Notes under the pieces: model-generated
The model's input: only the letters and a program-made list of their open reading frames with translations
What the model was told of the DNA's origin: nothing
Databases searched by the model: none
Part shown: positions 29,763-60,542 of the stretch, one piece after another
Position numbering within the stretch: position 1 is the stretch's first letter
How the letters are laid out: each line of letters opens with the position of its first letter
NCBI GenBank assembly: GCA_964019135.1
Contig: OZ025250.1
Span: 52,017,357-52,081,356 of the forward strand
Length of the DNA: 64,000 nucleotides
Reading direction: 5' to 3'
From: Arenicola marina
Lineage: Eukaryota; Annelida; Polychaeta; Arenicolidae
Made by a program: the position numbers and the translations under genes

Positions 29763-30069
29763 CAGCATACCACAATGCAGCACATTTGAGAAATTTTGTG
29801 TTTACTTCTTCCAGTTGACTGTAATGTCCACGTCACTACGTGGGCTGAGCCGTCGAGACCTCTACCCTGAAGATGACACACCCATAGCCTGCTGTCTGAT
29901 AACGTCATATACCAATCCGTGTCAGTGAGGGGTTCTCAGGCTTTCTCGAGTACACCATTGACCCTTAGACGGGATTATTTGATATATGATTGGAGGATCT
30001 GCTATGTGGTGATCTCCAACCAGGTGGCGCTCGTGGTATATAGGTTACCTGACCTACCCGTGACATTCG
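29763..30069 (+). promoter_or_regulatory. putative promoter of kinase gene A (block duplicated at kinase B)
   Basis: The block 29763-30150 is matched in inverted orientation by 60542-60154 with about nine in ten bases identical by eye. It contains TATATAGG at 30037-30044 and ends at a GTAAGT donor (30142). I infer a promoter (TATA, start near 30070) and a short 5'UTR exon. The match begins right after the end of the 4.5-kb transposon. The alternative is two copies of an unrelated dispersed repeat, but the matched orientation, position and donor argue against it. Confidence 0.55.
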
Positions 30070-30141
30070 CTGATCGGCGACAGGGCACGGAACAAGTTGG
30101 ACGCATTGGGATCAAGAGAACTCGAAATTAACAAACTTAAG
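30070..30141 (+). other. putative noncoding first exon of kinase A
   Basis: Ends AAACTTAAG before GTAAGTTG. The kinase coding exon at 37560 begins immediately after a CCCTTCAG acceptor with its ATG, so an upstream noncoding exon is required. The paralogue has the same layout. The 5' limit is a guess from the TATA box. Confidence 0.45.
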
Positions 30142-30196
30142 GTAAGTTGGCATATGGCGATGAACATAGATACTCCATACATGTTATATATGTCAC

Positions 30197-31210
30197 ATGA
30201 GTAATTTGGTGTCCATCTGTAGTATGAACGTTAGAGGAATAGGTTCAAAGCTAAAGAGAGAGGACGTGAGATCCTGGTTAAAGGAAAAAAATGGTTCAAT
30301 CTATTGCTTACAAGGCGTCCATTTAGAGCCATTGTCTCAAAGTAAGATGAAAGCGGAGTGGGGATGCAAGTGTTACTTGAATTCAGTCTCGACTCAAGCA
30401 AGAGGTGTGGCTATTGTAATATCCGATACGATAGACTACCACGTTGTTGATATCAACATGGATGAACAGGGTAACTTGCTTGTTTTGGATATTACAGTTA
30501 ATGGCACTAGATTTACCTTGGTCAATGTCTATGGCCCTAATAAGGATTTACCGGCGTTCTATGAAACCATGCACAGCAAAATTGAAAATATATGGAACGC
30601 CAGTGTTGTAATTTGTGGTGACTGGAATTTGGTTCTTGATTATAAAATAGACAGCATCGGTTTTACTAGAGAAAACAACTATAAGTCTAAACGCAGAGTC
30701 CTGGATATGAGTGAAAGTCTTGAATTGATTAATACGTGGCAGGTTAATCACCCAACCACCAGAAGATTCATCTGGACAAATGAACAAAAAAAGTCGCAAC
30801 GTGCTAGACTAGACTTCTTTCTTGTCACACCAGATATTAATGCAATGAATAAAAAATCGGATATTGGTCATGGTTATCGCACAGATCATTCCCTTGTTAG
30901 CATTTATTTAAATTTCAGCCTTAGTGAAAGGGGGAAAGGATTTTGGAAGCTAAACACATCCCTATTGCGAGATCCAGAATATTATAACATGGTGAAAAGA
31001 TGCATACATAGGACGTTGTTGATGTATGGTAAGCCGTTACAGAATAGCAATACTCAAACCACCATCGAATTGAACATTAATGACCAGATGTTATTTGAAA
31101 TGCTAAAACTGGAGATAAGAGGGGCAACGATTAGTTACAGCAGCTACAAGAAAAAAATTGTGACTGAAAAGGAGTCTTTCATAGAAGCAGAACGGACAGC
31201 CTCAATCTGA
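30197..31210 (+). pseudogene. LINE ORF2 N-terminal part: AP-like endonuclease
   Basis: About 337 codons. Endonuclease landmarks in order: SMNVRGIG (residues 9-16), CLQGVH where active copies usually have LQExH, LVNVYGPN, ICGDWNLVLD, RLDFFLV and RTDHSLV. The catalytic Glu of the LQE motif is Gly, so endonuclease activity is probably lost. Sense breaks near 31195-31210, where QPQSEIDDSITELRVKL continues in another frame. Confidence 0.85.
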
Positions 31211-32933
31211 AATTGATGACAGTATAACAGAACTTAGAGTTAAGCTGGAAGAGATCCGACAACCAAAAGTTAAGGCAGCATATCTTAGATCCAGAGCTAA
31301 GTATTACGAGGAAGGTGAAAAGCCGACCAAGTATTTCTGCAGTTTAGAAAAAAGGAATTATGTGAATAAAGTAATCAATAAGTTGGTAGTTAATGACAGA
31401 TTGGTTGTGGAACCTACAGAAATTATGGAAGAGCAGGCAAAATTCTACCAGTTACTATACGCTAACTCAGATACAGCAGCCTCTGATGTATCTGGGTACT
31501 TTTTAAAAGAAAGTAACATAAATGCTTTGGATTCTACTCAAAAAGATATATGCGAGGGTATGGTGACACTGAATGGGGTAAAAGAAGTTATGAGAAACAG
31601 GAAAAACGACAAAACGCCAGGGAGTGATGGTCTACCAATAGACTTTTATAACGTCTTTTGGATCGACATCAGGCACTATTTATTGAATAGTTTACATTAT
31701 GCCTATAAAACAGAAAATGTATCCATTTCTCAAAAACAGGGCATAATTACATGCCTGCCAAAAGGTGATAAGCCAAGACAATTCATGAAAAATTGGAGGC
31801 CAATTACCCTGCTTAATGCTGACTACAAAATTTTATCCGGAGTGTTGGCATATAGAATGAAAAAAGTTCTTGACAAAACCATCAGCTCCGACCAAAAGGA
31901 CTTCCTTAAAAATAGATATATAGGAGAAAATACTCGATTTGTATATGATATTATGCATTATTTAAGAGAGGAAGGAAAGGGGGGTTTATTACTATTAGTT
32001 GATTTCGAGAAGGCCTTTGATACGCTCAGTTGGAAATATTTAGATGAAGTTCTGCAAGCATATAATTTGGGGAATTCCTTTATGAAATGGTGCAAGACAC
32101 TGTATAGACCCTCAAACAGCTGTGTGATAAACAACGGTATGTTTTCTAGGTTCTTTAAGTCAGAAAGAGGGTGTAGGCAAGGAGACCCTTTGTCGCCTTA
32201 TCTTTTCATACTTGCAATAGAGCTGTTGGCAATGGAAATAAAAAATAACAAAAACATCCGTGGTGTGAAACTGGGAGATCGGGAATATAAATTAGGCCAA
32301 TATGCAGATGATACTTTTCTGCTTCTCGATGGCACTGATTCAGATCTTAGCAAAGTGATTAAGCTTAACTATTCGAGTAAAGTAGTAGAAATTGAAAGTT
32401 TCTTGAAGATGTATGGAAAACGTAACATATCGCTGAAAGGAAGAGTTGTGATCCTGAAGACGCTTGCTTTACCCAAGTTAGTCCACCTGCTATCAACGCT
32501 ACCTTCGCCAGGGAAAGATGATCTCAGCCAGTTAAATAGTGCAATTTGTAATTTCATCTGGAATAACAAGAAATCGAGAATCTCGCTAGGGCGTTTAGCA
32601 CAGAATATAGAGGATGGAGGAGTTGGTCTCACGCATGTGGAGTCTTTTGTACAAGCGTTGAAGATATCATGGATACAACGGTTGGTGAATACAGAGGGTG
32701 CATGGCAGGATTTATTCTGTAACTATATCTGTCGCAAAAAAGCTCTTTTCTGGGAACTGGATATTAAGTCACAAAAACAGTACCGTACTATGTCAAACCC
32801 CTTTTGGGCTGATGTGTTTAAAGCCTGGGCACATTTGTCAACGGTGCACTTTGAACCAGTTTTATATGAAATGCCACTTTGGAATACCTCCTTCATGACT
32901 AATCCAAATTTAATGGTGTATCCCGACCAATAG
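31209..32933 (+). pseudogene. LINE ORF2 C-terminal part: reverse transcriptase
   Basis: A frame shifted from the endonuclease part, with readable sense from about 31209. Reverse transcriptase motifs: NDKTPGSDGLPIDFY, NWRPITLLNADYKI, LLLVDFEKAFDTL, GCRQGDPLSPYLFIL and the catalytic YADDTFLLLDG (about 32300). After YADD the sequence jumps to KMYGKRNISLKGRVVILKT. Related elements have roughly 80-100 more residues here, so an in-frame deletion is likely near 32350-32400. The stop at 32931-32933 is followed by homologous but broken C-terminal sequence. Confidence 0.87.
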
Positions 32934-33309
32934 ATACTTATATATGTGTAAATTAGTATCCTGTGAAAAATGTACCTTCTGTAAGACTGATATAGAAACA
33001 GTTGAGCATCTCTTTTAGAAACGCAACATGGTGAGGAATCTCTGAGATAAGATTGGAATATGATTGGATTCTATTTCGACGCAACAAACAAAAGGACTGT
33101 GTAAACAAATTAATTGTAAGTCCGTATTGCTGGGTGTCACTTTAAGTTCATCCAAACAGCTTATTAACCATTTGTTGATTATTGTTAAAAAATATATATA
33201 TTTGTGTAAGTGGAAGATACTCCATACGCACCTTCCCAAATCAGCCAAATTATAAGGGATCTGGAAGGGGATGCCCAGTATCCAGTGTCCCTTTCCCCCA
33301 ATTAACCGT

Positions 33310-37200: not shown

Positions 37201-37205
37201 CAGGG

Positions 37206-37559: not shown

Positions 37560-37695
37560 ATGTCTGATCTAGAAGCCTTGGAGGCCGACCTCAAGGAGTC
37601 AGACGTTCCAACCCTGTCGGAAGCAGATGTTGTGGAAGTTGAGGAGATAGCGAGAGGAAGTTACGGGTTAATCTCCAAGGGCAAGCTGAAAGCAA
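37560..37695 (+). CDS. kinase A coding exon 1 (glycine loop)
   Basis: Codons 1-45 plus one base, ending ISKGKLKA before the GTAAGT donor. The acidic leader ADLKESDVPTLSEADVVE precedes the kinase fold. Confidence 0.8.
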
Positions 37696-38881
37696 GTAAG
37701 TGGATGAACAATGTTGGTATTTACAGTGCACACGAGTCTAGCTTGCATGCTGAATTACTATACCTCTCGCTTAATATATCGCGTATGTGTAGAAAGTACT
37801 ATACTTATCAGAAGTACTTCAAGAAATCAGACTCATGCGTAAGCTGCTAAAACAATGTCAAAGTTTGACATTTCTTCAATGGTATTGCAGAACACGCCAC
37901 TATGTTAAAGATATTTCTGTAAATGATTAGTGATTTCAAGGATTTATTTCTAGCGAATTACCCAACGTTAGTAGTGTTTACAAGAGTTTGAGCTCCAACG
38001 CTGCATCTGCACACTGCTGTATTGATCATATGTTATGTTTAGATCGTTCCAGAGTCGTTCTCAAGCAGATGCTTCCCTACAACAGTGATGAAGCTCACCG
38101 CAAGCTATTTTGTAAGGAAATTAGGCTCCTCGTTAAGACGACCGATAAGCACGCCCCCAATATTGTTCGTCTTCGAGGAGTGTGCCTCGAGCCTCTCAGT
38201 GCTATTGAGGAATACTTGGAGTTTAGTCTGGACGACACAAGGTTTTGCGAGAAGAAGGCTTCTGTAAAAGGCAACAACACCCTGGCTCATCTGCTGCATT
38301 TTCTTCATGAGTTGAAACTTGTTGAAGAAGTTGGAGTGAACCAAAGCGTGCTTCATAAAGCAGCATTTGACGTCGCGACTGGCTTGGCTTTCATTCATGA
38401 AAATGATATATGTCACAGAGACCTAAAGACGAGTAACGTTTTGGCGACGAATTCCGGGAAATCCTTTTTATTCAAGCTCACAGACTTTGGCGAGTCCAGA
38501 GCAGGCGACTTGCAAACCGCCTCCTTGCATACGAGTACAGACCGGGTTCAACGCGGAACACATTTGTACTTCGCCCCAGAAGTATTCATGGAAACGCTGA
38601 TGCCGGCAGATATCGAGGATTTGAAACGAGTTGACATTTGGGCCTACGGCATGATCCTATTCTGCCTACTTTGTCCTGATTTGAGGGGGCCCTGGGCAAA
38701 AGAACGGACCTTTGCTGGTATATGGAAGGCTATGACTGATGAAAAATTGCCGACAGCTTCCGGCCAGTACAAGCACCTGCCGGAGGACACAGGTCTAGGC
38801 GAAATATACACCATCTGCTGCCACTACGATCCGACAGGTAGACCAGCAATAAACGATGTTGTCGACGAATTGACCAAGTAA
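37560..38881 (+). CDS. protein kinase A (TKL-like Ser/Thr kinase)
   Basis: Coding exons 37560-37695 and 38043-38881 join in phase 1 to give 324 residues. All catalytic motifs are present: glycine loop GSYGLISKG (33-41), VVLK with Lys53, CKE with Glu71, HRDLKTSN (170-177), DFG (193-195), APE (223-225) and a VDIWAYGM helix. HRDLK marks it as Ser/Thr-type. The overall style suggests the tyrosine-kinase-like group, but no subfamily is recognised. The kinase domain fills the protein, with only about 30 residues before it and no transmembrane segment or signal peptide. The ATG directly follows a CCCTTCAG acceptor, so a 5' noncoding exon is expected (see 30070-30141). The paralogue is kinase B on the other strand, and the two genes converge. 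The stop overlaps a donor-like AA-GTAAGG, so a third coding exon cannot be excluded. Confidence 0.85.
38043..38881 (+). CDS. kinase A coding exon 2 (catalytic domain)
   Basis: Acceptor TTATGTTTAG, then an uninterrupted 279-codon frame from Lys53 to the stop at 38879-38881. It carries all catalytic residues after the glycine loop. Confidence 0.9.
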
Positions 38882-39339
38882 GGACAACCAACTTCGTATT
38901 AAAGTTGCATATCGAGTTCTTTCTCGCCCAAACTAAGCCCATGCGAAATTTCTATCATGATTTGCGGATTGTTTCATTCTATGAATTCAGAAACCTGATA
39001 AACATGGCCGTTTCGGCTGTGTTGTGGCAAACGTGTCTAACCCGGGACACCACGGAACTCTGTCGCGGCACTGCTACCTATACCAAGGCATCGCGAAGCA
39101 CACAAACTGATGACGTTTACCTCTAAAATGGAAACTTTTGGTAAATTGATATCACGGGCAAGCTAAAAGACATTATTTGGCAGTCTGGCATGGGTTGAGC
39201 ATAGACAACAATCTTGAATGATCCAAGGACTGGTTCTTATTTGTATTTTGACCTCTTTGGTTTTGACGGGAAAGAGCTCGATATGCAACTTTAAGTTGTA
39301 TTCACTGAATTGTATGAATTCGAGTCGGAATAGGTTGTA
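38882..39339. other. downstream of kinase A, nothing recognised
   Basis: Presumed 3'UTR and flank. No strong AATAAA signal is seen close to the stop. No other gene. Confidence 0.4.
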
Positions 39340-39825
39340 GTGGTCCGGGTCGGGGGAGGTCGAAGCAGTCTGGATCGGGGTAGGTCGGAGTGGTGAGGGT
39401 CGGGGTAGGTCGGAGTGGTGAGGGTCGGGGTAGGTCGGAGTGGTGAGGGTCAGGTAGGTCGGAGTGGTGAGGGTCGGGGGAGGTCGGAGCGGGGAAGGTC
39501 GAGGGAGATCGAAGCGGTCGGGGGAGGTCTGAGTGATCCGGGTAGATCGCGGTGGTCCGTGTTGGGGTAGGTCAGAGTGATCCGGGTCGGGTAGGTCGAA
39601 GTGGTCAGGGTCTGTGTAGGTGTGGGTGGTCCGGGCCAGGCTAGGGCAGGGTGTTCCGGGTCGGGTATAGGTCAGGAGTAGTGAGAATCGGGGTTGGTTG
39701 GAGTGGTACGGCTCGAGTAGACCAAGGTGGTCTTGGTCGGGTATAGGTCTGAGTGGTCCGGATCGGGGTAGGTCTGAGTGGTCCGGTCGACGTAAGTGGA
39801 AGTGGTCCGGGTTGGGGTAAATCTA
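39340..39825. repeat. 25-bp minisatellite, left (inverted) array
   Basis: GGGTAGGTCGGAGTGGT units of about 25-26 bp, diverged. They are the reverse complement of the unit in the 6.3-kb array at 50500-56765, so this is the small, older counterpart on the other arm. Confidence 0.85.
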
Positions 39826-40679
39826 CAACATAAGTTGATTGGCGATGCGCTTGCATTGATGCAGCTGCTCGCTGTACAAATTGCACTAGCATATTGGCAG
39901 ATAAATATACACTAACGCATGTTGCATTTAAAGCAATATGTTCTGTAATTTTATATTACCAAACTGTTCCCTGTGTCAAATAACTATATTCGGACTTGAA
40001 TTTACATCCTGAAAGCCTGTGGGCTATCTGAAAAGCATGTTTTGTTGTGCACCGGAGCAGACGTTGGTGGCCGACGTTATGAGCGCCTGTTCGCTGTTTG
40101 ATATTCTCTGTGATGTCGACCGCGGCTCGCTAGGACGTCTGCGCGCAATATAAATAAAACGCGCAGTTTTATGTTGACATTTTTCTTTTACAGACTCAAA
40201 GATATATAATGCATCATAATTTTGAGATACTTTTAGACTTGATTGGCGTGTCCCCAGCGGCGAGACGGCATAATGCTGATGGGAAGAGAGTGTGTCAATA
40301 TTGACTCCTGCAGAAAACAACATCACTGCCCCAACATAACTATAGTATCGTAATAGTCAGGCCGTTTGTCTGTCCGTGTACTGACATTAGGGAAAAGTAC
40401 CTACATGACGGCCACGTGACATATCGACTATCCAGAATGTATCAAGCTCCTTTCCTCCGATGACGTCAACAAGAAATCCCATCATCCATAATATTGTAAT
40501 ATATGTGAAAATTGCATCAAATATATCTAATAGAACTATGTACAAATCTAGATACCAATTATTAATTCAGATCTTGATTAGCATTTTGCATACGCCTATT
40601 GCTATGAAATGATCTACACACTTTGATGTATCATCAATTTTATCCGTATCATACAGACAATATTTATGAAGGGTCGGGA
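39826..40679. other. arm-specific segment, no gene
   Basis: It lies between the left 25-bp array and the conserved palindrome. I find no counterpart in the right arm, where the array follows the palindrome directly. It looks like an insertion in the left arm or a deletion in the right. Confidence 0.45.
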
Positions 40680-41609
40680 CGGGGTAGGGAGGGGGGGTGT
40701 TGGGGTAGGTGGGAGTGCTAAATGTTGGGGTATTAACCAATGACCTTATCTTAATATCCGGCCGATTGGTGTTTCTAAGAATTGAATCCACCAATTTGAT
40801 TAGGCCAATTCTTAACTGAATCCAAGCCGTGGATTTTGTGGCGTTATGACACTGCCATATAGCTTCATAGTAACTGTTATTTGAAGCTGTTGTTGTTGTT
40901 CACAGTCTGGCGTTTAGCCGAATGAACACCAGACGTTCTGGGTCGCCAGCCGCCGGGGAACATGGTGAGAAAGAAGCGACCAACGTTATGTCATAATATA
41001 TTATATAAAGCGAAACCACAACCGTGTGGGCCGCTCCATCTTCCTTTACTCGTCCCCTAGACTGCCACAGGGGTCGTTAACATATCGGACACACTACATG
41101 CCGGTGTTCGTGTCCCGCCTCCCGTATCAACATCTTCAATAACCCGATAAAACTGCGGTTCAAGATATAGTGTGCATGGACAAGCAATATTAAGCAGGAA
41201 ACTCATCTGTTTGATCATAACTTACATTGATCAAATTTAATTTCACTCTTCAGACGATGGTGGTGCTCGAGCTTGTAGCTCGCTTGTAGCTGCTGACAAC
41301 CCGCGAGCCAGCGACGCGCGGGCAGAGGCCAAACAATTTCCGAAAGCTGCGGACCAACCTTGGGTAACCATGGCTTACTACCACTACGGAATATTTAGAT
41401 TTATTGATTTAGCCCAAGAAAGATACGTATAGCCCCTATTCCATGATCGTAGAATAAACCTTATGACCTAATTGTAAAGCAGCAAACGTTGCGCGACACG
41501 GAAAAACAGTAGGTACAGCGACCTTAGACAGTCACTTTCAGACCGCTAGTCTGATCACAACCACGCAATAGGTCCGCCCACACACCAGACTCGCTCCCCC
41601 CGTCCGTCA

Positions 41610-41827
41610 CACTGTATGTCCCTCAACACTAGACGTCCACCCACAATGTATGTCCCTCCTCACTGTACGTCCGCCCACACTGTACGTCCGCCCACACGGT
41701 ATGTCTGCCCACACTGTACGTCCGCCCACACGGTATGTCTGCCCACACTGTACGTCCGCCCAAACTGTACGTCCGCCCACATTGTACGTCCGCCCACACT
41801 GTACGTCCGCCCGCACTGTTTGTCCGC
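41610..41827. repeat. 17-bp minisatellite, left arm
   Basis: CACACTGTACGTCCGCC, about 13 units. The right-arm counterpart (47945-49575) is about seven times longer. Confidence 0.9.
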
Positions 41828-42163
41828 ACTTTATATAGACATTGAAATTGACAACTGTTCAATGGGTTCTTTATATAGACATTGAAATTGACAACTGTCA
41901 GTCTCGGCTCGACAGACGTCGTCTGCTGTTCAGATTGAAAGATGTCGGCGTGAGAGGAAAGCGTTTTGGTATTGTACTGTGGTGGGTTTAGTAACTGTAG
42001 CGGTATTATATCAAATCAAAGCAAATGTCTTACGTAATGGATGTTCATTAACGTCATGGCTTGTGTACATATGTGTGTACCTGTCAGATCTTAATAGTAC
42101 ATAGCGTGTATACTCTCCATTATCTAACTGATGATTTATTTACCTGAATTGTTAGTGATATAA

Positions 42164-42332
42164 CAGGGGCGGATCTAGGAATTTGCGAAGGGGAGGTTGC
42201 GCTCTGAAAACTTGCGGGGGAGGGTTATCTGAAGACTTCGGGTGGGGTGCTCGGAGAAGCTGACTTTAACAGTGTATGCTTAAGTTCCCAAGGAGGGTTT
42301 GCACCCCTGCCCCCCACCTAGATCCGCCCCTG
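42164..42332. mobile_element. 169-bp MITE, CAGGGGCGGATC ends
   Basis: CAGGGGCGGATCTAGG at the left and CCTAGATCCGCCCCTG at the right form terminal inverted repeats. CA...TG ends of this kind are typical of hAT-type MITEs. TATAA lies on both sides. A decayed partner sits at 47218-47395 in the right arm, so insertion preceded the palindromic duplication. Confidence 0.75.
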
Positions 42333-42779
42333 TATAAGCCATTCCTTCTGACAAACTGCACCAAGTGAGTAACTCTCGGTGATATACAGGACAATATGAC
42401 TGTTGCTTGACCTTTGTGTACATGCTTAGCATGTTAAGAACATATTTGGTTATATTTCGGAACATGCCCCTAGACCACTTTGTATTGATATTGATCTGCC
42501 CATTACAGTCCCGTAAGACATCACACCCTCGCTCTCTAGTTTGATGCACGCCACACCCTCCCCTCACTGCCCTTCTTATGTTGGCGTCACATACACCTTC
42601 CATTCTGACCCGTCATGTTTGTCAATCTCATGTGTGTTGTACACAACACAATCCGCCCACTCTGTCCGTCGTTCTTTTTCTTGACACAATACCATGCACT
42701 GTAACCAACATCAATGTTATGTTCATTCTCTTAAGCTCCCTTTGCCATTCCTGATCTCTTCCTTGTTTGCTCAAGAGTA

Positions 42780-43400
42780 AGTCCCGTTCAGGCCCTGCCT
42801 CCCTCCTCTCCTGTGAGCCTCTCTGCTCACCTCCACCATTCAGGCCCTGCTTCCGCCCTGTGAGCCTCTCTGCTCACTTGCATTGTTCAGGCCCTGTCCC
42901 CCCTGTGAGCCTCTCTGCTCACCTCCGTCGTTCAAACCCAGCCCCCTCTCCCCTGTGAGCCTCTATGTTCACCTCCATCGTTCAGGCCCTGCCTGCTCCC
43001 CCCCCCCCCTGTGAGCCTCTCTGCTCACTTGCATTGTTCAGGCCCTGTCTCCCCTGTGAGCCTCTCTGCTCACCTCCGTCGTTCAAACCCTGTCCCCTCC
43101 CCCCTGTGAGCCTCTCTGCTCACCTCCGTCGTTCAAACCCAGCCCCCTCTACCCTGTGAGCCACTCTGCTCACCTCTATCGTTCAGGCCCTGCCCCCATC
43201 CCCTGTGAGCCCCCCCCCATTGTGAGCCGCCGCTCTGCTCACCTCCGTCGTTTAGCCCCCCCCCCCCATTTGAGCCCCTCTGCTCACCTTTATCGTTCAG
43301 ACCCTGCCACCCCCCCCCCGCCCCCTGTGAGCCTCTCTGCTCACCTCCGTCGTTCAGACCATGCCTCCCCCCCTCTCTGCAAGCCTCTCTGCTCACCTTC
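42780..43400. repeat. minisatellite GTGAGCCTCTCTGCTCACC, left arm
   Basis: Units of about 50-60 bp carrying TGTGAGCCTCTCTGCTCACCTCCGTCGTTCA and a C run, about 11 copies. GTGAGC...GCTCAC is itself a small palindrome within each unit. Confidence 0.85.
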
Positions 43401-46140: not shown

Positions 46141-46224
46141 GAGGGAGATACTGTTTTGTTAGAATAGCAGACAGAGCCGGGTAGAGAGAGAGAGAGAGAG
46201 AGAGAACGAGACGCAGGGACGGGA

Positions 46225-46790: not shown

Positions 46791-47217
46791 AACAAGGAAG
46801 AGATCAGGAATGGCAAAGGGAGCTTAAGAGAATGAACATAACATTGATGTTGGTTACAGTGCATGGTATTGTGTCAAAGAAACGAACGACGGACAGTCTG
46901 CTGATGGTGTGGTGTAGAACACACATGAGATTGACAAACATGACGGGTCAGATTGGAAGGTGTATGTGACGCTAACATAAGAAGGACAGTGAGATGAGGG
47001 TGTGGCGTGCATCAAACTAGAGAGGGAGGGTGTGATGTACGTTTTACAGAACTATAATGGGCAGATCAATACAAAGTGGTCTAGTGGGACTGTTCTGAGA
47101 TATAACCAAGATGTTCCTAAAATGCTAAACATTTACACAAAGGTCAAGCAACACTCATAATGTCCTGTATATCACCGAGTTACTCACTTGGTAGTATTTG
47201 TAAGAAGGAATGGCTTA

Positions 47218-47395
47218 CACAGGGGCGGATCTAGGTGGGGGGGTGGAGGGATGCAAACCCCCCTTGGGAACTTACACTGTTAAAGTCAGCTTCTTCGAGC
47301 ACCCCACCCCAAGTTTTCAGATATCCCCCCCCCCCCACACCGTCGCAAGTTTTCAGAGAGCAACCTCCCCTTCGCAAATTCCTAGATCCCCCGTT
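47218..47395. mobile_element. MITE, CAGGGGCGGATC ends, right-arm copy
   Basis: Inverted partner of the element at 42164. One terminus is eroded (TTCCTAGATCCCCCG). Confidence 0.65.
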
Positions 47396-47944
47396 ATATT
47401 ACTTACAATTCAGGTAAACATATTATCAGTTAGATAATGGAGAGTATACACGCTATGTTCTATTTAGATCTTACAGGTACACACATATGTACACAAGCCA
47501 TGGCTTTACTGAACATCCATAACGTAAGACATTTACTTTGATTTGATATAATCACCGCTACAGTTACTAAACACACCACAGTACAATACCAAAACGCTTT
47601 CCTCTCACGCCGACATCACCCAGTCTGAACAGCAGACTACGTCTGCCGAGCCGAGACTGACAGTTGTCAATTTCAATGTCTATATAAAGAACCCATTGAA
47701 CACAGTGAGACATACGTTGGTTCCCCGTGACCTATCCAGCGGGTCTACATGTATTTTTTTACCATATTCACGGTTTAACTGTTTACATCCTAGCTAGCCT
47801 GCCATATATCTGCATCTTTTAGAAGACCGGGCATCTGGGTGGGGAAGGGGCAGGGAGAGGGGGAAGGGGCAGGGAGAGGGGGAAGGGGCAGGGAGAGGGG
47901 GAAGGGGAGAGGGTGGTGGAGGGGATGGAGGAGGGGGCGAGGGA

Positions 47945-49575
47945 GGGAGCGTGCAGTGTGGCCCGACATAGAGTGTGAGCGGACGTACAGTGTGGGTGGA
48001 CGTACAGTTTGGGCTGAAGTACAATGTGGGCGGACGTACAGTGCGGACGAACGTACAGTGTGGGGGGAGCTACATTGCGGGCGGACGTACAGTGTGGGCG
48101 GACGTACAGTGCGGGCGAACGTACAGTGTGGGGGGAGGTACAGTGCGGGCGGACGTACAGTGTGGGCGGACGTACAGTTTGGGCTGAAGTACAATGTGGG
48201 CGGACGTACAGTGCAGGCGAACGTACAGTGTGGGGGGAGGTACAGTGCGGGCGGACGTACAGTGTGGGCGGACGTACAGTGTGGGCGGACGTACAGTGCG
48301 GGCGGGCGTACAGTGAGGGCGGACGTCCAGTATGGGCGGACGTACAGTGTAGGCGGACGTACAGTGCGGTCGGACGTACAATGCGGGCGGACGTATAGTG
48401 TGGGCGGACAGTGGGCGGGCGTACAGTGAGGGCGGACGTACAGTATGGGCGGACGTACAGTGCGGGCGGACGTACAGTGTGGGCGGACGCATAGTGCGGG
48501 CTAACGTACAGTATGGGTGGACGTACAGTGCGGGCAGACGTAAAGTGCGGGCGGACGTACAGTGCGGGCGGACATACAGTGTGGGTGGACGTACAGTTCG
48601 GGCGGACGTACAGTGTGGGCGGACGTACAGTGTGGGTGGACCTACAGTGTGGGTGGACGTACAGTGTGAGCGCGGACGTATAGTGTGGGCGGACGTACAG
48701 TGTGGGCGGACGTACAGTGTGGGCGGACGTATAGTGTGGGCGGACGTATAGTGTGTGCGGACGTACAGTGTGGGCGGACGTATAGTGTGAGCGGACGTAT
48801 AGTGTGGGCGGGCGTATAGTGTGGGCGGACGTACAGTGTGGGCGGACGTATAGTGTGGGCGGACGTACAGTGTGGGCGGACGTACAGTGTGGGCGGACGT
48901 ATAGTGTGGGCGGACGTATAGTGTGGGCGGACGTGCAGTGCGGGCGGACGTATAGTGTGGGCGGACGTATAGTGTGTGCGGACGTACAGTGTGGGCGGAC
49001 GTACAGTGTGGGCGGACGTACAGTGTGGGTGGACCTACAGTGTGGGTGGACGTACAGTGTGAGCGGACGTACAGTGTGGGCGGACGTATAGTGTGGGCGG
49101 ACGTACAGTGTGGGCGGACGTATAGTGTGGGCGGACGTATAGTGTGGGCGGACGTAGTGTGGGCGGACGTACAGTGTGGGCGGACGTATAGTGTGGGCGG
49201 ACGTATAGTGTGTGCGGACGTACAGTGTGGGCGGACGTATAGTGTGGGCGGACGTATAGTGTGGGCGGACGTGCAGTGTGGGCGGACGTGCAGTGCGGGC
49301 GGACATATAGTGTGGGCGGACGTATAGTGTGTGCGGACGTACAGTGTGGGCGGACGTATAGTGTGGGCGGACGTATAGTGTGGGCGGACGTACAGTGTAG
49401 GCGGACGTGCAGTGCGGGCGGACGTATAGTGTGGGCGGACGTATAATGTGGGCGAACGTACAGTGGGCGGACGTAAAGTGAGGGCGGACGTACAGTGTGG
49501 GCGGACGTACAGTGCGGGCGGACGTACAGTGAGGAGGGACATACATTGTGGATGGACGTCTTGTGTTAAGGGACA
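47945..49575. repeat. 17-bp minisatellite, right arm, expanded
   Basis: GGGCGGACGTACAGTGT units, about 95 copies, with T/C and A/G variants (CGTATAGT, CGTGCAGT) arranged in higher-order patterns. Seventeen is not a multiple of three, but no unit frame contains a stop, so very long spurious ORFs exist on both strands. Confidence 0.93.
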
Positions 49576-50499
49576 TACAATGTGACGGACGGGGGGGGGG
49601 GGTGGGGCGAGTCTGGTGTGTGGGCTGACTTATTGCGTGGTTGTGACCAGACTAGCGGTCTGAAAGTAACTGTCTAAGGTCGGTGTCCCTACTGTTTTTC
49701 CGTGTTGCGCAACGTTTGGTGCTTACATTTAGTGCTAATGTTTATTGTTTACTTTTATATACCGACGTTAAATAAAACTTTCTTATCTTATCTTATTAGG
49801 TCATCAGGGTTGTTCTGCGTTCATTGAATAAATGTTATACATATCTTTCTTATGCCTCTCCATATCTAAATATTCCGTAGTGGTTACCCAAGGTTGGTCC
49901 GTAGCATCTACAAGTGGCCCGTCCGCGCCAATCGAAGGCTGCCTGGTGGACACGTTCATGGCTCCAGCACCGCCATCGCCTGATGAGTGAAATTAAATTT
50001 TATGAGTTTATGATCAATCAGATGAGTTTTCTGCCTGATATTGCTCGCTATATCTTGAACGGCAGTTATTCCGCAGTTCTATCGGGTTATTGAAGATGTC
50101 TATGCGGAACGCGGGACACGAACACCGGCATGTAGTGTGTCCGTTATATTACCGAACCCTGGGGCAGTACAGGGGACGAGTAAAGACAGATGGAGCGGCC
50201 CACACTGTTGTGGACTATAAATGTTTCGCTTTCAATAATATATTATGACATCACGTTGGTCGCTCCTTTCTCACCATGTTCCCCGGCGGCTGGAGACCCA
50301 GAACGTCCGGCGACCATTCGGTTGGACGTCAGACTGTGAACAACAAAAACAGCTTCAAATAAGTGTTACTCCTAAACTATATGGCGGTGTCATAACGCCA
50401 CAAAATCCACGGCTTGGATTCAGTAAAGATTGGCCTAATCAAATTGGTGGATTCAATTATTCCAAGCACCAATTTTACGGTTGGAGATTAAGATAGATT

Positions 50500-53400
50500 A
50501 ATGGCTAATACCCCAACCGTTATCACTCCGACCTACCCCAACCGGTACAACTCCAACCTACCCCAACCGGTACCACTCGCACACCCCCCAACCAATACCA
50601 CTCCGACCTACCCCAACCGGTATCACTCCAACCTACCCCAATCTAAACCACTCCGACCTGCCCCAACCGGTACCACTCCAACCTACCATAACCAGTACCA
50701 CTCCGACCTGCCCCAACCGGTATCACTCTGACCTATCCCAAACGGGACCACTCCGACCTACCCCACCTGGTACCACTCCCACATACCCCAACCAGTACCA
50801 CTCCAACCTACCTCAACCTATACCACTCCAACCTACCCCAACTGGTACCACTCCGACCTACCCCAACCGGTACCACTCCAACCTACCCCAACCAGAACCA
50901 CTCTGACCTACCCCAACCGGTACCACTCTGACCTACCCCAACCGGTACCACTCTGACCTACCCCAACCGGTACCACTCCAACCTACCCCAACCGGTACCA
51001 CTCCGACCTACCCCAACCGGCACCACTCCGACCTACTCCAACCAGTACCACTCCGACCTACCCCAACCAGTACCACTCCAACCTACCCCAACCGGTTCCA
51101 CTCCGACCTACCCCAACCGGTACCACACCGACCTACCCCAACCTGTACCACTCCGGCCTACCCCAACCAGTACCACTCTGACCTACCTCAACCGATACCA
51201 CTCCGACATACCCCAACTGTTACCACACCGACCTGCCCCAACCGGCACCACTCCAACCTACCTAAACCGATACCACTCCGACCTACCCCAACTGGTACCA
51301 CTCTGACCTACCCCAACCGGTTCCACTCCAACCTACCCCAACCGGTACCACTCCAACCTACCCCAACCGGTACCACTCCGACCTACCCCAACCGGTACCA
51401 CTCCCACCTACCCTAACCAGTAACACTCCGACCTACCCCAACTGGTACCACTCCGACCTACCCCAACCGGCACCACTCCAACCTACCCCAACTGGTACCA
51501 CTTCGACCTACCCCAACCGGTTCCACTCCGACCTACCCCAATCGGTACCACTCCGACCTACCCCAACCAGTATCACTCCGACCTACCCCAACCAGTACCA
51601 CTCCGACCTACCCTAACCAATACCACTCCGATCTACCCCAACCAGTACCACTCCGACCTACCCTAACCAATACCACTCCGACCTACCTCAACCAATACCA
51701 CTCCGACCTACCCCAACTGGTACCACTCTGACCTACCCCAACCGGTTCCACTCCGACCTACCCCAACCGGTACCACTCCGACCTACCCCAACCAGTATCA
51801 CTCCGACCTACCCCAACCGGTACCACTCCCACATACCCTAACTGGTACCACTCCCACCTACCCCAACCGGTACCATTCCCGACCTACCCAAACCGGTACC
51901 ACTACAACCTACCTCAACCGATACCACTCCGACCTACCCCAACCGGTACCACTACGACCTACTTCAACCAATACCACTCCGACCTACCCTAACCAGTACC
52001 ACTCCGATCTACACCAACCAGTACCACTCCGACCTACCCCAACCAGTATCACTCCGACCTACCCCAACCGGTACCACTCCGACCTACCCTAACCAATACC
52101 ACTCCGATCTACCCCAACCAGTACTACTCCCGACCTACCCCAACCGGTGCCACTACGACCTACCTCCACCGATACCACTCCGACCTACCCAACCGGTACC
52201 ACTCCCACGTACCCCAACCGGTACCACTCTGACCTACCTCAACCGGTACCACTCCGACCTACCCCAACCGATACCACTCCGACCTACCCCAACCGGTACC
52301 ACTCCAACTTACCCCAACCGGTATCACACCGACCTACCCCAACCGGTACCACTCCAACTTACCCCAACCGGTACCAGTCCGACCGACCCCAACCGGTACC
52401 ACACCCACCTACCCCAACCGGCACCGGTACCACTCCGACCTACCCCAACCGGCACCACTCCGACCTACCCCAACCGGTACCACTCGCACACACCCCAACC
52501 AATACCACTCCGACCTACCCCAACCGGTATCACTCCGACCTACCCCAAACCTGTATCAATCCAACCTACCCCAACCGGTACCACTTCGATCTATCCCAAC
52601 CGGTACCACTCCCACCTACCCCAACCAGTACCACTCTGACCTAACCCAACCAGTAACACTCCGACCTACCCCAACTGGTACCACTCCGACCTACCCCAAC
52701 CGGCACCACTCCAACCTACCCCAACTGGTACCACTTCGACCTACCCCAACCGGTTCCACTCCGACCTACCCCAACCGGTACCACTCCGACCTACCCCAAC
52801 CAGTATCACTCCGACCTACCCCAACCGGTACCACTCCCACCTACCCCAATCGGTACCACTCCGATCTACCCCAACCGGTACCACTCCCGACCTACCCCAA
52901 CCGGTGCCACTACGACCTACCTCAACCGATACCACACCCACCTACCCCAACCAGTATCACTCCGACCTACCCCAACCGGTACCACTCCGACCTACCCCAA
53001 CTGGTACCACTCCAACCTACCTAAACCGATACCACTCCGACCTACCCCAACCGGTTCCACTCCGACCTACCCCAACCGGTACCACTCTGACCTACCCAAA
53101 CCGGTACCACTCCGACCTACCCCAACCGGTTCCACTCCGATCTACCCCAACCGGTACCACTCTGACCTACCCCAACCAGTATCACTCCGACCTACCCCAA
53201 TCGGTACCACTCCGATCTACCCCAACCGGTACCACTCCGACCTACCTCAACCAATACCACTCCGACCTACCCCAACCAGTATCACTCCGACCTACCCCAA
53301 CCGGTACCACTCCCACATACCCCAACCGGTACCACTCCCACCTACCCCAACCGGCACCACTCCGACCTACCCCAACCAGTATCACTCCGACCTACCCCAA

Positions 53401-56400
53401 CCGGTACCACTACAACCTACCTCAACCGATACCACTCCGACCTACCCCAACCGGTACCACTCCGACCTACCCCAACCAGTAGCACTCCGACCTACCCCAA
53501 CCGGTACCACTCCGACCTACCCTAACCAGTACCACTCCGAACTACCCCAACCGGTACCACTCCGACCTACCACAACTGGTATCACTCCGACCTACCCTAA
53601 CCAGTACCACTCCGAACTACACCAACCAGTACCACTCCGATCTACCCCAACCAGTATCACTCCGACCTACCCCAACCGGTACCACTCCGACCTACCCTAA
53701 CCAATACCACTCCGATCTACCCCAACCAGTACCACTCCCGACCTACCCCAACCGGTGCCACTACGACCTACCTCAACCGATACCACTCCGACCTACCCCA
53801 ACCGGTACCACTCCCACCTACCCCAACCAATACCACTCCGACCTACCCTAACCAGTACCACTCCGAACTACACCAACCAGTACCACTCCGATCTACCCCA
53901 ACCAGTATCACTCCGACCTACCCCAACCGGTACCACTCCGACCTACCCTAACCAATACCACTCCGATCTACCCCAACCAGTACCACTCCCGACCTACCCC
54001 AACCGGTGCCACTACGACCTACCTCAACCGATACCACTCCGACCTACCCCAACCGGTACCACTCCCACCTACCCCAACCGGTACCACTCTGACATACCTC
54101 AACCGGTACCACTCCGACCTACCCCAACCGATACCACTCTGACCTACCCCAACCGGTACCACACCAACCTACCCCAACCAGCACCAGTACCACTCCAACT
54201 TACCCCAACCGGTATCACACCGACCTACCCCAACCGGTACCACTCCAACTTACCCCAACCGGTACCAGTCCGACCGACCCCAACCGGTACCACACCCACC
54301 TACCCCAACCGGCACAGGTACCACTCCGACCTACCCCAACCGGCACCACTCCGACCTACCCCAACCGGTACCACTCGCACACACCCCAACCAATACCACT
54401 CCGACCTACCCCAACCGGTATCACTCCGACCTACCCCAAACCTGTATCAATCCAACCTACCCCAACCAGTACCACTCTGACCGACCCCAACCAGTACCAC
54501 TCCGACATACCCCACCCGGTACCACTCCGACCTACCCTAACTAGTACCACTCTGACCGACCCCAACCAGCACCACTCTGACATACCCCAACCGGTACCAC
54601 TCCGACCTACCCTAACCGGTAACACTCCGACCTACCCCAACCTGTACCACTCTGACCTACCCCAACCGGTACCACTCCGACCTGCCCCAACCGGTACCAC
54701 TCCAACCTACCCCAACCGGGACCACTCCGACCTACCCCAACTGGTACCACTCCCACTGACCCCAACCAGTACCACTCTGACCTACCTCAACCAATACCAC
54801 TCCGACCTACCCCAACCGGTACCGCTCCAACCTACCCCAACCAGTACCACTCTGACCTACCCCAACCGGTACCACTCCAACCTACCCCAACTGGTACCAC
54901 TCCGACCTACCCCAACCGGTACCACTCCGACCTACCCCAACCAGTACCACTCTGACCTACCTCAACCGGTACCACTCCGACCTACCCCAACCAGTACCAC
55001 TCCGACCTACCCCAACTGGTACCACTCCGACCTACCCCAACCGGTACCACTCCAACCTACCCCTACCGGTACGACTCAGACCTGTTCAAACTAGTACCAC
55101 TGCGAACTACCCCAACCGGCACCACTCCGACCTACCAAAACCGATATCACTCCGACCTACCCCAACTGGTACCACTCCGACCTACCCCAACCTGTACCAC
55201 TCCGTCCTACCCAAACTGGAACCACTCCGACCTACCCCAACTGGTACCACTCCGACCTACCCCAACCTGTACCACTCCGACCTACCCCAACCTGTACCAC
55301 TCCATCCTACCCAAACTGGAACCACTCCGACCTACCCTAACCGGTGACACTCTGACCTACCCCAACCTAAACCATTCCGACCTACCCCAACCTGTACCAC
55401 TTCGACCTATCCAAACCGGCACAACTCCTACCTACCCCAACCGGCATCACTCCGACCTACCCCAACCTGTCCCACTCTGACCTATCCCAACCGGAACCAC
55501 TCCGACCTACCCCAACCTGTCCCACTCTGACCTATCCCAACCAGTACCACTCCGACCGACCCCAACCGGTACCACACCCACCTACCCCAACCGGCACAGG
55601 TACCACTCCGACCTACCCCAACCGGCACCACTCCGACCTACCCCACCCGGTACCACTCCGACCTACCCTAACTAGTACCACTCTGACCGACCCCAACCAG
55701 CACCACTCTGACATACCCCAACCGGTACCACTCCGACCTACCCTAACCGGTAACACTCCGACCTACCCCAACCTGTACCACTCTGACCTACCCCAACCGG
55801 TACCACTCCGACCTGCCCCAACCGGTACCACTCCAACCTACCCCAACCGGGACCACTCCGACCTACCCCAACTGGTACCACTCCCACTGACCCCAACCAG
55901 TACCACTCTGACCTACCTCAACCAATACCACTCCGACCTACCCCAACCGGTACCGCTCCAACCTACCCCAACCAGTACCACTCTGACCTACCCCAACCGG
56001 TACCACTCCAACCTACCCCAACTGGTACCACTCCGACCTACCCCAACCGGTACCACTCCGACCTACCCCAACCAGTACCACTCTGACCTACCTCAACTGA
56101 TACCACTCCGACCTACCCCAACCAGTACCACTCTGACCTACCTCAACCGGTACCACTCCGACCTACCCCAACCGATACCACTCCGACCTACCCCAACTGG
56201 TACCACTCCGACCTACCCCAACCGGTACCACTCCAACCTACCCCTACCGGTACAACTCAGACCTGTTCAAACTAGTACCACTGCGAACTACCCCAACCGG
56301 CACCACTCCGACCTACCAAAACCGATATCACTCCGACCTACCCCAACTGGTACCACTCCGACCTACCCCAACCTGTACCACTCCGTCCTACCCAAACTGG

Positions 56401-56765
56401 AACCACTCCGACCTACCCCAACTGGTACCACTCCGACCTACCCCAACCTGTACCACTCCGACCTACCCCAACCTGTACCACTCCATCCTACCCAAACTGG
56501 AACCACTCCGACCTACCCTAACCGGTGACACTCTGACCTACCCCAACCTAAACCATTCCGACCTACCCCAACCTGTACCACTTCGACCTATCCAAACCGG
56601 CACAACTCCGACCTACCCCAACCGGCATCACTCCGACCTACCCCAACCTGTCCCACTCTGACCTATCCCAACCGGAACCACTCCGACCTACCCCAACCTG
56701 TCCCACTCTGACCTATCCCAACCAGTACCACTCCGACCTACCCCAACCTGTACCACTCCGACCCA
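50500..56765. repeat. 6.3-kb minisatellite, 25-bp units
   Basis: GGTACCACTCCGACCTACCCCAACC, about 250 units. GGTACC at the unit boundary is a recurrent six-base palindrome. Large higher-order duplications are visible: the stretch around 54490-55550 is repeated almost verbatim at about 55635-56750. No spacers, so this is not a CRISPR array. Long ORFs across it are artefacts. Confidence 0.95.
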
Positions 56766-56969: not shown

Positions 56970-57811
56970 TTACTTGTTTAATTCAGATTGGATAACACCA
57001 ATGTCAGGTCTGCTCTCAGGGTCAAAGTCACAGCACCTCTTGTATATGTCACCCAGACCAGTCTCATCCGCTAGGTGCTTGTATTTGTGCGATCCTCTGG
57101 GCAACTGTCTGGCAGCGATCGTCGCCTTCAGCACGTCATCTTTATTAGGTTGGTTTTTCAGCTCCATGTCCCATGGTGACACGAAATCAGGAGAGAGCAG
57201 GCAGAATAAGACCATACCGCAGCTCCAAACATCCATCCGTTTACAAGCTGTGATGTCTGCCTTTTCCAGGGATTCCATGATTTGTTCCGGTGAAGAAAAG
57301 AGTCTTGTTCCTCGTCGAACACGGGGAGTGTCCACACATGGTACAGATTTAGTTTGGATGTCAGGAGACCTACTTTCACCGAAGTCGGTCAGCTTAAAGG
57401 TAAACAAATCCCTGGTATTTGTCACCAGAATGTTAGACGGCTTCATATCCCTATGACAGATGTCTTCATGATGAAGGAAGGCCAGCCCTGTAACCACGTC
57501 AAGTGCTGCTGTGTGAAACATCCCCCGCTTCACGCCAATGTCTTCGACAAGAGCGGAGCGTTCCAGAGTTCTAAGTAGTGCTGCTAGGTTGTGGCCTTTG
57601 GAAAGACCGCGGATATTAGGATGCTCCAAATTAAACTCCATCAACTCCATAATAGGACTGAAGCTTGTGGGATCTATGCACACTGCCAGCAGACTTACAA
57701 TATTTCGGTGCTTAATGGTACTGAGTATTTTAGTCTCCTTTGCGAACATCTTAACGTAGCGGACGTCTTCGTGGGAGGCCAACATCTGCTTAATGACGAC
57801 TCGGGAACCAT
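56970..57811 (-). CDS. kinase B coding exon 2 (catalytic domain)
   Basis: Acceptor TATATTCAG on the minus strand, then an open frame to TAA at 56972-56970. It starts DGSRVVIKQM and ends SELNK. Confidence 0.9.
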
Positions 57812-58431
57812 CTGAATATAATTGAGGTACATATACGTTTACAGATAATGCACTATGCAAATATATATAATTCAAGTGTATTCCTACAGGCAAACATATC
57901 ATATTGCGAATGTGTTACGTTGAACACGCCCCCCACCCCCCCCCCCGCCCAACCACTTTTTGTTGTCGAAACTCAAAGCCACGGTATCAATTACATTACA
58001 TATCGATATCTGCGAGGGGAGTGTTAATACCGGAGTATCTGACAGCTTTTAGGCGAATGTAAAAATCTATGTCGAGGTATTAATAGCAGGATTGGCGAAT
58101 TTGAAGGGTGGACGTTCCACTTTACTGACTGATACTCAATGACTAAAACTAAAGGAGACATTTGACGCCAGGTTAACATTAGCACATAAAGAGATTAACA
58201 TCATGGCGGACCCGCATTTAGCTCAACTTCTAAGGGTCATATGATTTCAGTGGCCTGGTACGACTTACCTGACTTAAGACTGCCCATAATGACTCGTCCA
58301 AAGCCTCCTTCGGCGATCACACGCTCTTCCACGATGTCTTCGCTTTCCAGAACAGCAATGCCAGCGCGCCTTATGTGCTGTCGCAAGCTGGTCATGATCG
58401 ATTTTAACGTCTCGATCTCGGCAGGTTCCAT
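56970..58431 (-). CDS. protein kinase B (TKL-like Ser/Thr kinase)
   Basis: Coding exons 58431-58269 and 57811-56970 (minus strand) join in phase 1 to give 334 residues. Motifs: glycine loop GGFGRVIMG (42-50), VVIK with Lys62, AKE with Glu80, HRDMKPSN (174-181), DFG (197-199), an SPE variant of APE (228-230) and a MDVWSCGM helix. All key catalytic residues are intact. It shares roughly half its residues with kinase A, identical intron position and phase in the loop between glycine loop and Lys, and an ATG right after an acceptor (TTTCTTTCTGACCAG). The N-terminal segment (MEPAEIETLKSIMTSLRQHI) is helical-looking and unlike that of A. It faces A tail to tail across the palindrome. Its stop overlaps a perfect GTAAGT, so a further exon is possible. 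Confidence 0.85.
57812..58268 (-). other. intron between kinase B coding exons
   Basis: 457 bases with a C-rich tract at 57930-57950. No other feature is seen. The matching intron of kinase A is 347 bases. Confidence 0.7.
58269..58431 (-). CDS. kinase B coding exon 1 (glycine loop)
   Basis: Codons 1-54 plus one base, ending MGSLKS before GTAAGTCG. Confidence 0.8.
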
Positions 58432-58799
58432 CTGGTCAGAAAGAAATGGGTTGCTTTATAATGTCATGCTGGTTTCTATGGGCGATTTATCGCTTACTTT
58501 GTGTGTGTTATCGCGCTATTCAACGAATGCATCATAAAGATAAGTTTCGCTACCGTAATGACTCGGGCAGGGGTTGGGATTCAATTCATGATTATTCCAT
58601 TACCTCCTCTCGGCAAGATGTGTCTTATGGAGACCAAATTATATATTATATATTGATGAGTTTCATTGGTTTAAATCGTGATTCACGTGTATTCTTGGCT
58701 CGTGTTGATGCATCATTACATACTGTGATGGATATCTTCTCTTCAGGTTCGAAACTGCGAAACTGTGGATTAGTAAACTGCACGTCACAGCGAAGTGGC

Positions 58800-60000
58800 C
58801 GGGGGGGGGGGGGGGGGCACTGTATGGCGGCATGTTGGCGCCACTTGCCATCTCGCATTCTCGCCTGGCACCAAAAGGGGCAAGAACGCGAGAACAAGAG
58901 ACTGTGCGCTAGAGAACACGAGGGCAAGACCGCTAGGGTGAGAACGCGTGAACGACATTCTGAAGTTCTAGCACTTCGCGTTCTCGCGATCTCGCCCTCG
59001 CGATCTCGCCCTCGCGATCTCGCCTCGCCCGGTACCACTCCGACCTACCCCAACGGTCGCCCTGGCGATCTCGCCCTCGCGATCCCGTTTCCAGACGCTG
59101 GACTATGGCTCTGTGTGCTGGGCTATGATTCTGGGCGCGGACTAAGGCTCCGGGCCCGGACATTCTTTCTGGGCGCGGACTATGGCTCCGGGCACGGACA
59201 ATCTTTCTGGGCGCGGACTATGGCTCCGGGCACGGACATTCTTTCTGGGCGAGGACTTGGGCTCCGGGCACGGACATTTTTCTGGGCGCGGACTATGGCT
59301 CCGGGCACGGACATTCTTTCTTTGAGCGAGTTTATCTCTCTATGCGCTGAACTATGGTTCCATGCGCTGGACTGGGACTCCCTGCGCTGGGCTACGACTC
59401 CGTGTGATGAACTATGGTTCTGGGCTATGGCTCTGTGCAGGGCTATGGCTCCAGCCTATGGCTCCGTGCAGGGCTACGGCTCCGTGCAGGGCTACGGCTC
59501 CGTGCAGGGCTATGGCTCCGGCTCCATGTACGGGCTATGGCTCAGGGCTATGGCTCCGTGCACGGGCTATGCCTCCGGCTGCCGGGTATGGCTCCCGGGC
59601 TCCGGGCTATGGCTCCGGGTGCGGGCTTTGGCTACGGGTGCGGAATATGGCTCAGGACTATGGCTACGGGCGCGGGATATGGGTCTAGGGCCATGGCTCA
59701 GGTCTCGGGCTCCTGGCTTTGTCTCCGTGCACAAGCTATGGCTCTGTGCGCTCGACTATGGATCCGATCGCCGGGCTGTGACTTCGGGCTATGGCTCGCG
59801 ATGGCGCGATCAAACGCGCGGGCGAGTTTGCGAAATCTTGAGCATGCAAGATCACGAGAACGCCGGGGCGGAAATATGAAGGCGAGATTAATATCGCGTT
59901 CTCACCCTCGCGTTCTTCTTTTCTCGCCATCGCGTTCTTGAGTTCTCGCCCTCGCGTTCTTGAGTTCTCGCCCTCGCGTTCTTGTGTTCTCGCCCTCGAG
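58800..60000. repeat. composite minisatellites in kinase B first intron
   Basis: A G18 run at 58800, then inverted families of CTCGCGATCTCGCC / GAGAACGCG words (58870-59100 and 59870-60000). Between them lie CGGACTATGGCTCCGGGCA (59120-59320) and GGGCTATGGCTCCGTGCA (59340-59800) arrays. The long plus-strand frame through it is spurious. Confidence 0.8.
59029..59056. repeat. solitary 25-bp unit of the 50.5-56.8 kb array
   Basis: CCGGTACCACTCCGACCTAC followed by CCCAACGG sits alone inside the CTCGCCCTCGCGATCT array, about 2.3 kb beyond the end of the 25-bp minisatellite. It is one exact unit with no neighbours. Confidence 0.9.
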
Positions 60001-60161
60001 TGGTATGCCACCATACTACCACCCGTGCGGCAGATGACTAGTTGACTGTTGAAACGACAGACATTGACGATGGAGCTCACCCCACTGAAGGCAGACTGTC
60101 ACTTAATCTGGGAATGTGTGTATAGATCATGTACTATGGAGACCGCTTTATATCAACTTAC

Positions 60162-60235
60162 CTTAAGTTAGTTAATTCCGAGTTCTCTTTGATCCCAATG
60201 CGTCCAACTTGTTTCGCGCCCTGTCGCCAGTCTCT
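60162..60235 (-). other. putative noncoding first exon of kinase B
   Basis: On the minus strand it ends ACTTAAG before GTAAGTTG (donor at 60161). This mirrors 30070-30141 in sequence, TATA spacing and donor. The 5' limit is a guess. Confidence 0.45.
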
Positions 60236-60542
60236 GAATGTCACGGGTAGGTAAGGTAACCTATATATCACGAGCGCCACCTGGTTGGAGATCACCACAT
60301 AGCATATCATCCAATCATATATCAAATAATCCCATCCAAGGGTCAATGGTGTACTCGAGAAAGCTTGAGAACCCCTCACTGACACGGATTGGTATATGAC
60401 GTTATCAGATCGCAGGCTATGGGTGTGTCGTCTTCTGGGTAGAGGTCTCGACGACTCAGCCCACGTGGTGACTCGGACATTACAGTCAACTGGAAGAAGT
60501 AAACACAAAATTGCTCAAATGTCCTGCATTGTGGTATGCTGT
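60236..60542 (-). promoter_or_regulatory. putative promoter of kinase B (inverted copy of 29763-30069)
   Basis: TATATAGG (minus strand) at 60267-60260, with about 100 bases from TATA box to splice donor as in kinase A. Shared landmarks include CTTCCAGTTGACTGTAATGT, GATAACGTCATATACCAATC and AACCAGGTGGCGCTCGTG. Confidence 0.55.

Follow-up and report, generated by a model that had tools for sequence, protein, structure and literature searches.

A nearly uniform, predicted promoter/leader block, probably homogenised by recombination, is paired with strongly diverged kinases in a clustered gene family of Arenicola marina

In this work we describe a window of 64,000 nucleotides from the polychaete Arenicola marina (C3:52017357-52081356, C3 being the chromosome that carries it), in which positions 29763..60542 hold two intact kinase genes, A on the forward and B on the reverse strand, facing each other. 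Upstream of both lies a block of DNA, and the near-uniformity of this block despite strongly diverged proteins suggests that switches have been traded between genes. The explanation we favor, to which we assign a probability of about 0.7, is that ectopic recombination or gene conversion has held a promoter/leader module similar among the genes and has joined it anew to diverging kinases, and the face-to-face pair of A and B would be one instance of such promoter trading within the family. The parts are ordinary (an expanded kinase family, minisatellites, and scaffold gaps); what is unusual is a near-uniform promoter/leader decoupled from strongly diverged coding regions. A mitochondrial contig of the assembly carries, in order, nad3, trnS(tct), nad2, cox1, trnN, cox2, trnD, atp8, trnY, trnG, and cox3, with TGA read as Trp (the protein genes besides cox1 were identified by their translations); this arrangement is common to annelids, and a similar one in a sipunculan has been derived from that of annelids (PMC2639372), so that the sequence itself makes an annelid source likely.

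According to a DNA comparison within the window, 29763-30150 (+) and 60154-60541 (-) are 93.0% identical over 388 nt with one gap, and the E value of 4e-166 means that this likeness is not due to chance. The TATA motif TATATAGG begins 105 nt (A) and 106 nt (B) 5' of the donor G, and the GTAAGT donor GGTAAGTTG falls inside the 93%-identical block of both genes, in agreement with the preliminary description of this DNA, which had reported an upstream block with a motif about 100 bases before a GTAAGT donor. In the case of gene A, the candidate promoter and non-coding 5' exon occupy 29763..30141 (+), with the TATA box at 30037-30044 and the end of exon 1 at 30141, directly before GTAAGT; in gene B they occupy 60162..60541 (-), with the TATA box at 60260-60267 and the end of exon 1 at 60162, the transcription start being putative in both. 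The block comprises a putative core promoter, about 275 nt up to the TATA box, followed by a predicted non-coding first exon of about 75 nt.

The first coding exon lies at 37560..37695 (+) in gene A and at 58269..58431 (-) in gene B, in both cases with a phase-1 donor and with a CAG acceptor abutting the ATG, as had been proposed. The kinase exons are found at 38043..38881 (+, class I) and 56970..57811 (-, class II). The first coding intron of both genes is in phase 1 and falls at an identical position of the kinase domain, so that the joined exons run uninterrupted to a natural stop (324 amino acids for A and 334 for B), which bears out the common intron position and phase claimed before. The Pkinase profile (PF00069) recognized the open reading frames of the kinase exons at 3.1e-26 (A) and 1.7e-32 (B), assigning both genes to this family, and the kinase domain was the only Pfam match in the two proteins. 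Furthermore, the junctions predicted earlier, 30141 to 37560 and 60162 to 58431, coincide with candidate splice sites.

A DNA search with the block revealed at least 43 matches in the 867-Mb genome, 42 of them on C3 and the remaining one on C688, a small contig (a lower bound, as 40 of 60 candidates were scored; at two sites the match is broken in two, and another of the matches is just a short, partial second copy). When the kinase exon of A was used in a protein search, at least 112 matches were obtained, at least 91 of them on C3 (139 of 185 candidates scored); leaving aside four second pieces, 87 of these 91 make up the C3 kinase set, so that the family has at least 87 kinase match places on this chromosome among the matches listed. 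A same-strand kinase is located within 10 kb downstream of 36 of the 42 C3 block pieces, compared to none of the 42 with the strands flipped and to a mean of 1.1 (maximum 6) in 1000 draws of random places from the same chromosome parts. In addition, the C688 copy has a same-strand kinase 1.6 kb downstream. Together, the C3 pieces provide 34 of the 87 C3 kinases with a block. Among the 30 block copies (of 43) that were aligned, the TATATA core is present in 29 and the donor GT in all 30. The first coding exon was detected upstream of 35 of the 43 kinases read (for seven of the other eight the upstream DNA lies outside the sequence covered), and the CAG|ATG start was found in 8 of the 11 members whose first-exon match began at the first residues. 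Both the position of the block at kinases and its conservation indicate that it is very probably the promoter and non-coding first exon of these genes. In this respect, the promoter and first-exon role proposed in the preliminary description gains support from the same-strand placement and the conserved motifs; the same description had regarded occurrence of the block in many unrelated places as a sign against this role, and the copies are indeed many, but most of them sit at kinases. The C3 pieces away from kinases are at 51146393, 52531383, 53722033/53722467, and 54988610/54989044, and two of these four places have the identical two-piece split. At K49820 (L002, L015; C3:49822009-49823548) the block is present in tandem copies about 1.15 kb apart, a possible double promoter.

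A kinase tree of 25 genes separated two classes at 100/100: class I contains A, and class II contains B, which groups there with K56184. The kinase exons of A and B share 48% protein identity, and they agree at 29.6% of 54 four-fold sites, which is about chance level and means that these sites are saturated. Among the matches listed, the best match of A elsewhere is C3:30587265 with 67% identity, B scoring 51% in the same search. A and B are therefore members of two old branches of one family, neighbors that share a module.

To compare the histories of block and kinase body we used the 25 genes with both parts available, of 35 when C688 is counted. Block identity and kinase protein identity were uncorrelated over the 300 pairs (r = 0.02; Mantel p = 0.81 for the 24 C3 genes). 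Block similarity drops with distance along C3 (Mantel r = -0.32, p = 0.011, 24 genes), and for protein identity this relation is less clear (r = -0.115, p = 0.083). The block tree does not separate the kinase classes, as it requires 6 class changes, and a tree forced to keep class II together was rejected by the approximately unbiased (AU) test (p = 0.035); the class-II gene K36690 clusters with class-I blocks at 100/99. Local homology was compared in all 156 cross-class pairs, and it always stops between +382 and +434 of the first gene, shortly past the donor at +379; in the upstream direction it extends over a variable length, up to about 1.3 kb. A self-written test of the pairwise homoplasy index (PHI) type gave p = 0.001 for the block, and the content of guanine and cytosine (GC) showed no clear conversion-linked rise (block mean 47.1%, window 47.5%, upstream 1.2 kb of B 42.2%). 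Altogether, paralogs resemble one another far more in the block than elsewhere in these genes, and the trees of the two parts conflict, which is the pattern of concerted evolution. Past the donor of gene B, a 311-nt stretch of intron 1 (58450..58760, -) has 20 matches, all on C3, and by eye these lie beside class-II or class-II-like kinases. The corresponding stretch of K49643 (C3:49642165-49642471) is 99% identical to that of B and the kinase exons are 88% identical, another discordant tract.

One gene, K52126, is a mosaic copy with a detectable switch point. Its kinase exons are 99.5% identical to those of K52385, with all 125 four-fold sites the same, and the blocks of the two genes are 91.8% identical. 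We counted the sites at which B and K52385 differ, removing those that match neither, and K52126 agreed with B and K52385 at 136 and 6 sites, respectively, upstream (-300 to -21), at 17 and 11 within the block, and at 2 and 145 downstream (to +700). Thus, K52126 is B-like upstream and class-I downstream, and the switch is located within the block.

Under the mechanism that we propose, the block would act as core promoter and non-coding first exon, spliced to the start-codon exon of a small kinase, and would serve some members of a large kinase family that has its cluster on one chromosome. The members would have diverged into at least two old classes, with the promoter/leader modules staying alike. 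Near the gene start, the block is the principal stretch common to both classes; exchanges between classes would for this reason switch inside it, and these exchanges, presumably by ectopic recombination or gene conversion, would homogenize the block and re-pair upstream regions with gene bodies, the block acting as a hinge between them. Any functional benefit of this arrangement would be conjectural. A bolder version, which we consider rather doubtful, is that the block, besides being a promoter, has evolved as a recombination hinge: with one interchangeable module before dozens of diverging kinases, upstream control regions and kinase bodies would be reassorted like a slow germ-line deck of cards, perhaps for kinases engaged in an arms race.

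Several observations weigh against exchange of the block as described here. The outer counts for K52126 in part weigh homologous DNA against unrelated DNA, so that they show which flank this gene carries; moreover, the best-scoring match to its upstream 1.2 kb is B, about 50 kb away, and yet this match is 90%, a value that indicates that B is not its true donor. The identity between K52126 and K52385 rises stepwise: it is about 92% in the block, 95% in intron 1, and 97.5-100% in exon 2 and beyond. This stepwise rise suggests several exchange events, which may have acted either by replacement of the promoter or by copying of the body, rather than a single one. Block identity is weakly correlated with four-fold identity (r = 0.19, p = 0.004). 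The AU test is barely under 0.05, the block tree has 11 open branches among its 22 inner ones, and its starred branches force just 2 class changes; some class signal is also left in this tree, as its 6 changes compare with a mean of 8.7 after shuffling, and 24-28 of 500 shuffles were as low. The kinase exons recombine within classes as well (PHI-type p = 0.002 for class II and 0.018 for class I). The block was detected at just 35 of 88 kinase places (the 87 on C3 plus C688), leaving 53 C3 kinases without it, and 6 of the 42 C3 pieces, at 4 places, lack a kinase on their own strand within 10 kb. CAG|ATG is not universal, since CAG is followed by TTG in K25133 and by ACG in K57067, and K36690 lacks the CAG. 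Finally, the promoter and exon roles of the block are themselves predictions from sequence.

Among the alternatives, the one that survives best concerns the arrangement of A and B, which may have been joined tail to tail at like 3' repeats by a scaffolding error; we give this somewhat less than even odds. The 3' flank of gene A (39331..44522, +) contains a 25-bp minisatellite and then GC-rich repeats, and that of gene B (44723..56763, -) contains GC-rich repeats and 17-bp and 25-bp minisatellites; each provides one arm of a palindrome (41856-44522 versus 47702-45051; 85.2% over 2792 aligned columns, with 265 gaps). The inverted repeat placed in the middle by the preliminary description is therefore present, but its center is an assembly gap of 200 N (44523..44722). 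Two family genes with such a 3' flank give a palindrome when they face each other. The segment 42100-42780 of the window has at least 65 matches (40 of 1236 candidates scored), including two short ones on C4 and C11, and 36 of the 39 larger C3 pieces listed are preceded, at no more than 35 kb, by a kinase on the same strand, compared to 11 of 39 with flipped strands and a random mean of 3.6 (maximum 10). Another convergent palindrome center, near 49.24 Mb (L078, 2268-2467) and flanked by a + kinase and a - kinase, is also a 200-N gap. As both convergent-pair palindromes examined have a scaffold gap at their center, the convergent order of A and B rests on scaffolding. True palindromes may also break assemblies at the center, and an error of this kind would change just how A and B are ordered and leave the block, the genes, and the family untouched, so that it is compatible with exchange of the block. 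The minisatellite arrays in the window are 50509-56763 (25 bp, 249 units), 47972-49531 (17 bp, 92 units), and 35373-36298 (55 bp, 17.5 units), and DNA resembling the 25-bp array is also present behind the four further kinases that were compared with B. We also considered convergent pairs as a design of the cluster and ruled this out, as the 60 neighbor pairs formed by the 61 kinases between 45 and 57.2 Mb comprise 11 convergent, 11 divergent, and 38 same-strand pairs, that is, no excess of convergent ones.

The main rival to exchange is pure constraint, by which the block would be a conserved promoter/leader kept by purifying selection and inherited with its gene. The nearly invariant TATA box and donor are as expected from it, as is the slight class signal in the block tree, and in the most diverged block copies a core that starts at about +26 or +78 and reaches the donor is retained, with differing flanks, which makes some constraint on the block likely as well. 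As the whole explanation it seems improbable to us, because constraint does not account for the conflict between block and kinase trees, the mosaic K52126, the recombination detected in the block by the PHI-type test, the upstream DNA of up to about 1.3 kb shared by some cross-class pairs, or the fall of block similarity with distance.

The preliminary description had explained A and B by one inverted duplication of about 30 kb, and this could be maintained if the kinases had diverged fast afterward, given the mirrored order of block, intron, kinase, minisatellites, and palindrome. This claim was not borne out and we regard it as very improbable: A and B belong to different classes, with 48% protein identity against 93% in the block, and their four-fold sites are saturated. 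They are not sister genes, since A is closer to C3:30587265 and B groups within class II, so that each has nearer relatives elsewhere among the matches listed. Moreover, their first introns differ in kind, the 3' repeat accompanies many members of the family, and convergent neighbors are not in excess.

It is equally hard to credit that the block is a mobile element, such as the 5' end of a long interspersed nuclear element (LINE) or a solo terminal repeat, that came to lie beside kinases by chance: its many copies, its sharp 5' edge at 29763 in gene A relative to other copies, the LINE that begins soon after the block of A, and the 6 C3 pieces not near a kinase would fit, but the matches listed are limited to one chromosome and one small contig, 36 of 42 are on the kinase strand and none in the flipped one, the LINE is bounded within intron 1 by a target-site duplication of its own, and the other copies in the 30-copy alignment continue past the donor into differing intron sequence. 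Dispersal independent of the neighboring gene, as for a transposable element, is thus not what we found, since 36 of 42 pieces keep strand and place. The LINE itself (30168..33227, +, in intron 1 of gene A) was recognized by its open reading frames, an endonuclease (30170-31210) and a reverse transcriptase (31185-32933) on the sense strand relative to gene A, and by a perfect 13-bp target-site duplication (30168-30180 and 33215-33227). Just 5' of the ATG exon of gene A there is also a 29-bp GC-rich repeat (37208-37472), which by eye looks common to the start of intron 1 of three other family members (L019, L029, and L030).

Regarding the kinases, the catalytic residues are well kept among the 43 kinase exons read: the beta-3 Lys, the HRD Asp, and the DFG Asp are present in all 43, the alpha-C Glu in 42, and the HRDxK lysine in 38. 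The ratio of nonsynonymous to synonymous substitutions (dN/dS) was computed for the 219 of 903 pairs with a dS of 0.02-0.5; the 153 pairs of class I had a median of 0.34, and the 66 pairs of class II had a higher median of 0.71, with a maximum of 1.19. Positive selection across the whole kinase domain was considered and rejected, as pairwise dN/dS does not generally exceed 1; in class II, constraint may be relaxed or some sites may be under selection. A search of the PDB with the family profile gave CDKL2 first, with chains of MAP3K9, IRAK4, BIK1, and RIPK1 among the best 60, and with A alone the best match was CHK2, so that no single known subfamily stands out in these sequence searches. Kinases of the IRAK4, RIPK1, and MAP3K9 kind belong to the tyrosine-kinase-like group. 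The present family resembles them in these profile matches and in the kept catalytic residues, and differs in that A and B have 324-334 amino acids with the kinase domain as sole Pfam match. An immune or signaling role would be a guess.

Comparable situations have been described in other clustered families. In teleost clustered protocadherins, the 3' region of the variable exon is homogenized by gene conversion among paralogs of the same subcluster (PMC1852091). As that source presents them, they share with the kinases a large clustered family in which one region is homogenized and the rest diverges; unlike in the protocadherins, here it is a promoter and non-coding leader that is homogenized, and this across two classes with saturated four-fold sites. 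The SmPoMuc genes of Schistosoma mansoni have four promoter groups, with 0.024-0.041 net substitutions per site, and a recombination event carried sequence between promoter groups (PMC3757033). From what is reported there, both systems have paralog promoters with predicted TATA signals and a 5' untranslated region that fall into groups, with recombination, and they differ in that many more genes are involved here and promoter and coding histories are at odds. Plasmodium var genes likewise have conserved upstream classes before diverse coding regions, in a different organism and with a different role. We did not meet this kinase family in the literature searched, but the searches were few and narrow, and its absence from them counts as weak evidence of novelty.

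The best-known cases of concerted evolution are those in which genes or exons are homogenized, and here it would apparently act on a control module, with the proteins drifting apart, so that the history of a promoter and that of its gene are separate. Similar promoters are then, as a point of caution, no evidence of recent gene duplication. Finally, this family may serve as a natural experiment on whether conversion can hold many diverged paralogs under one regulatory program.

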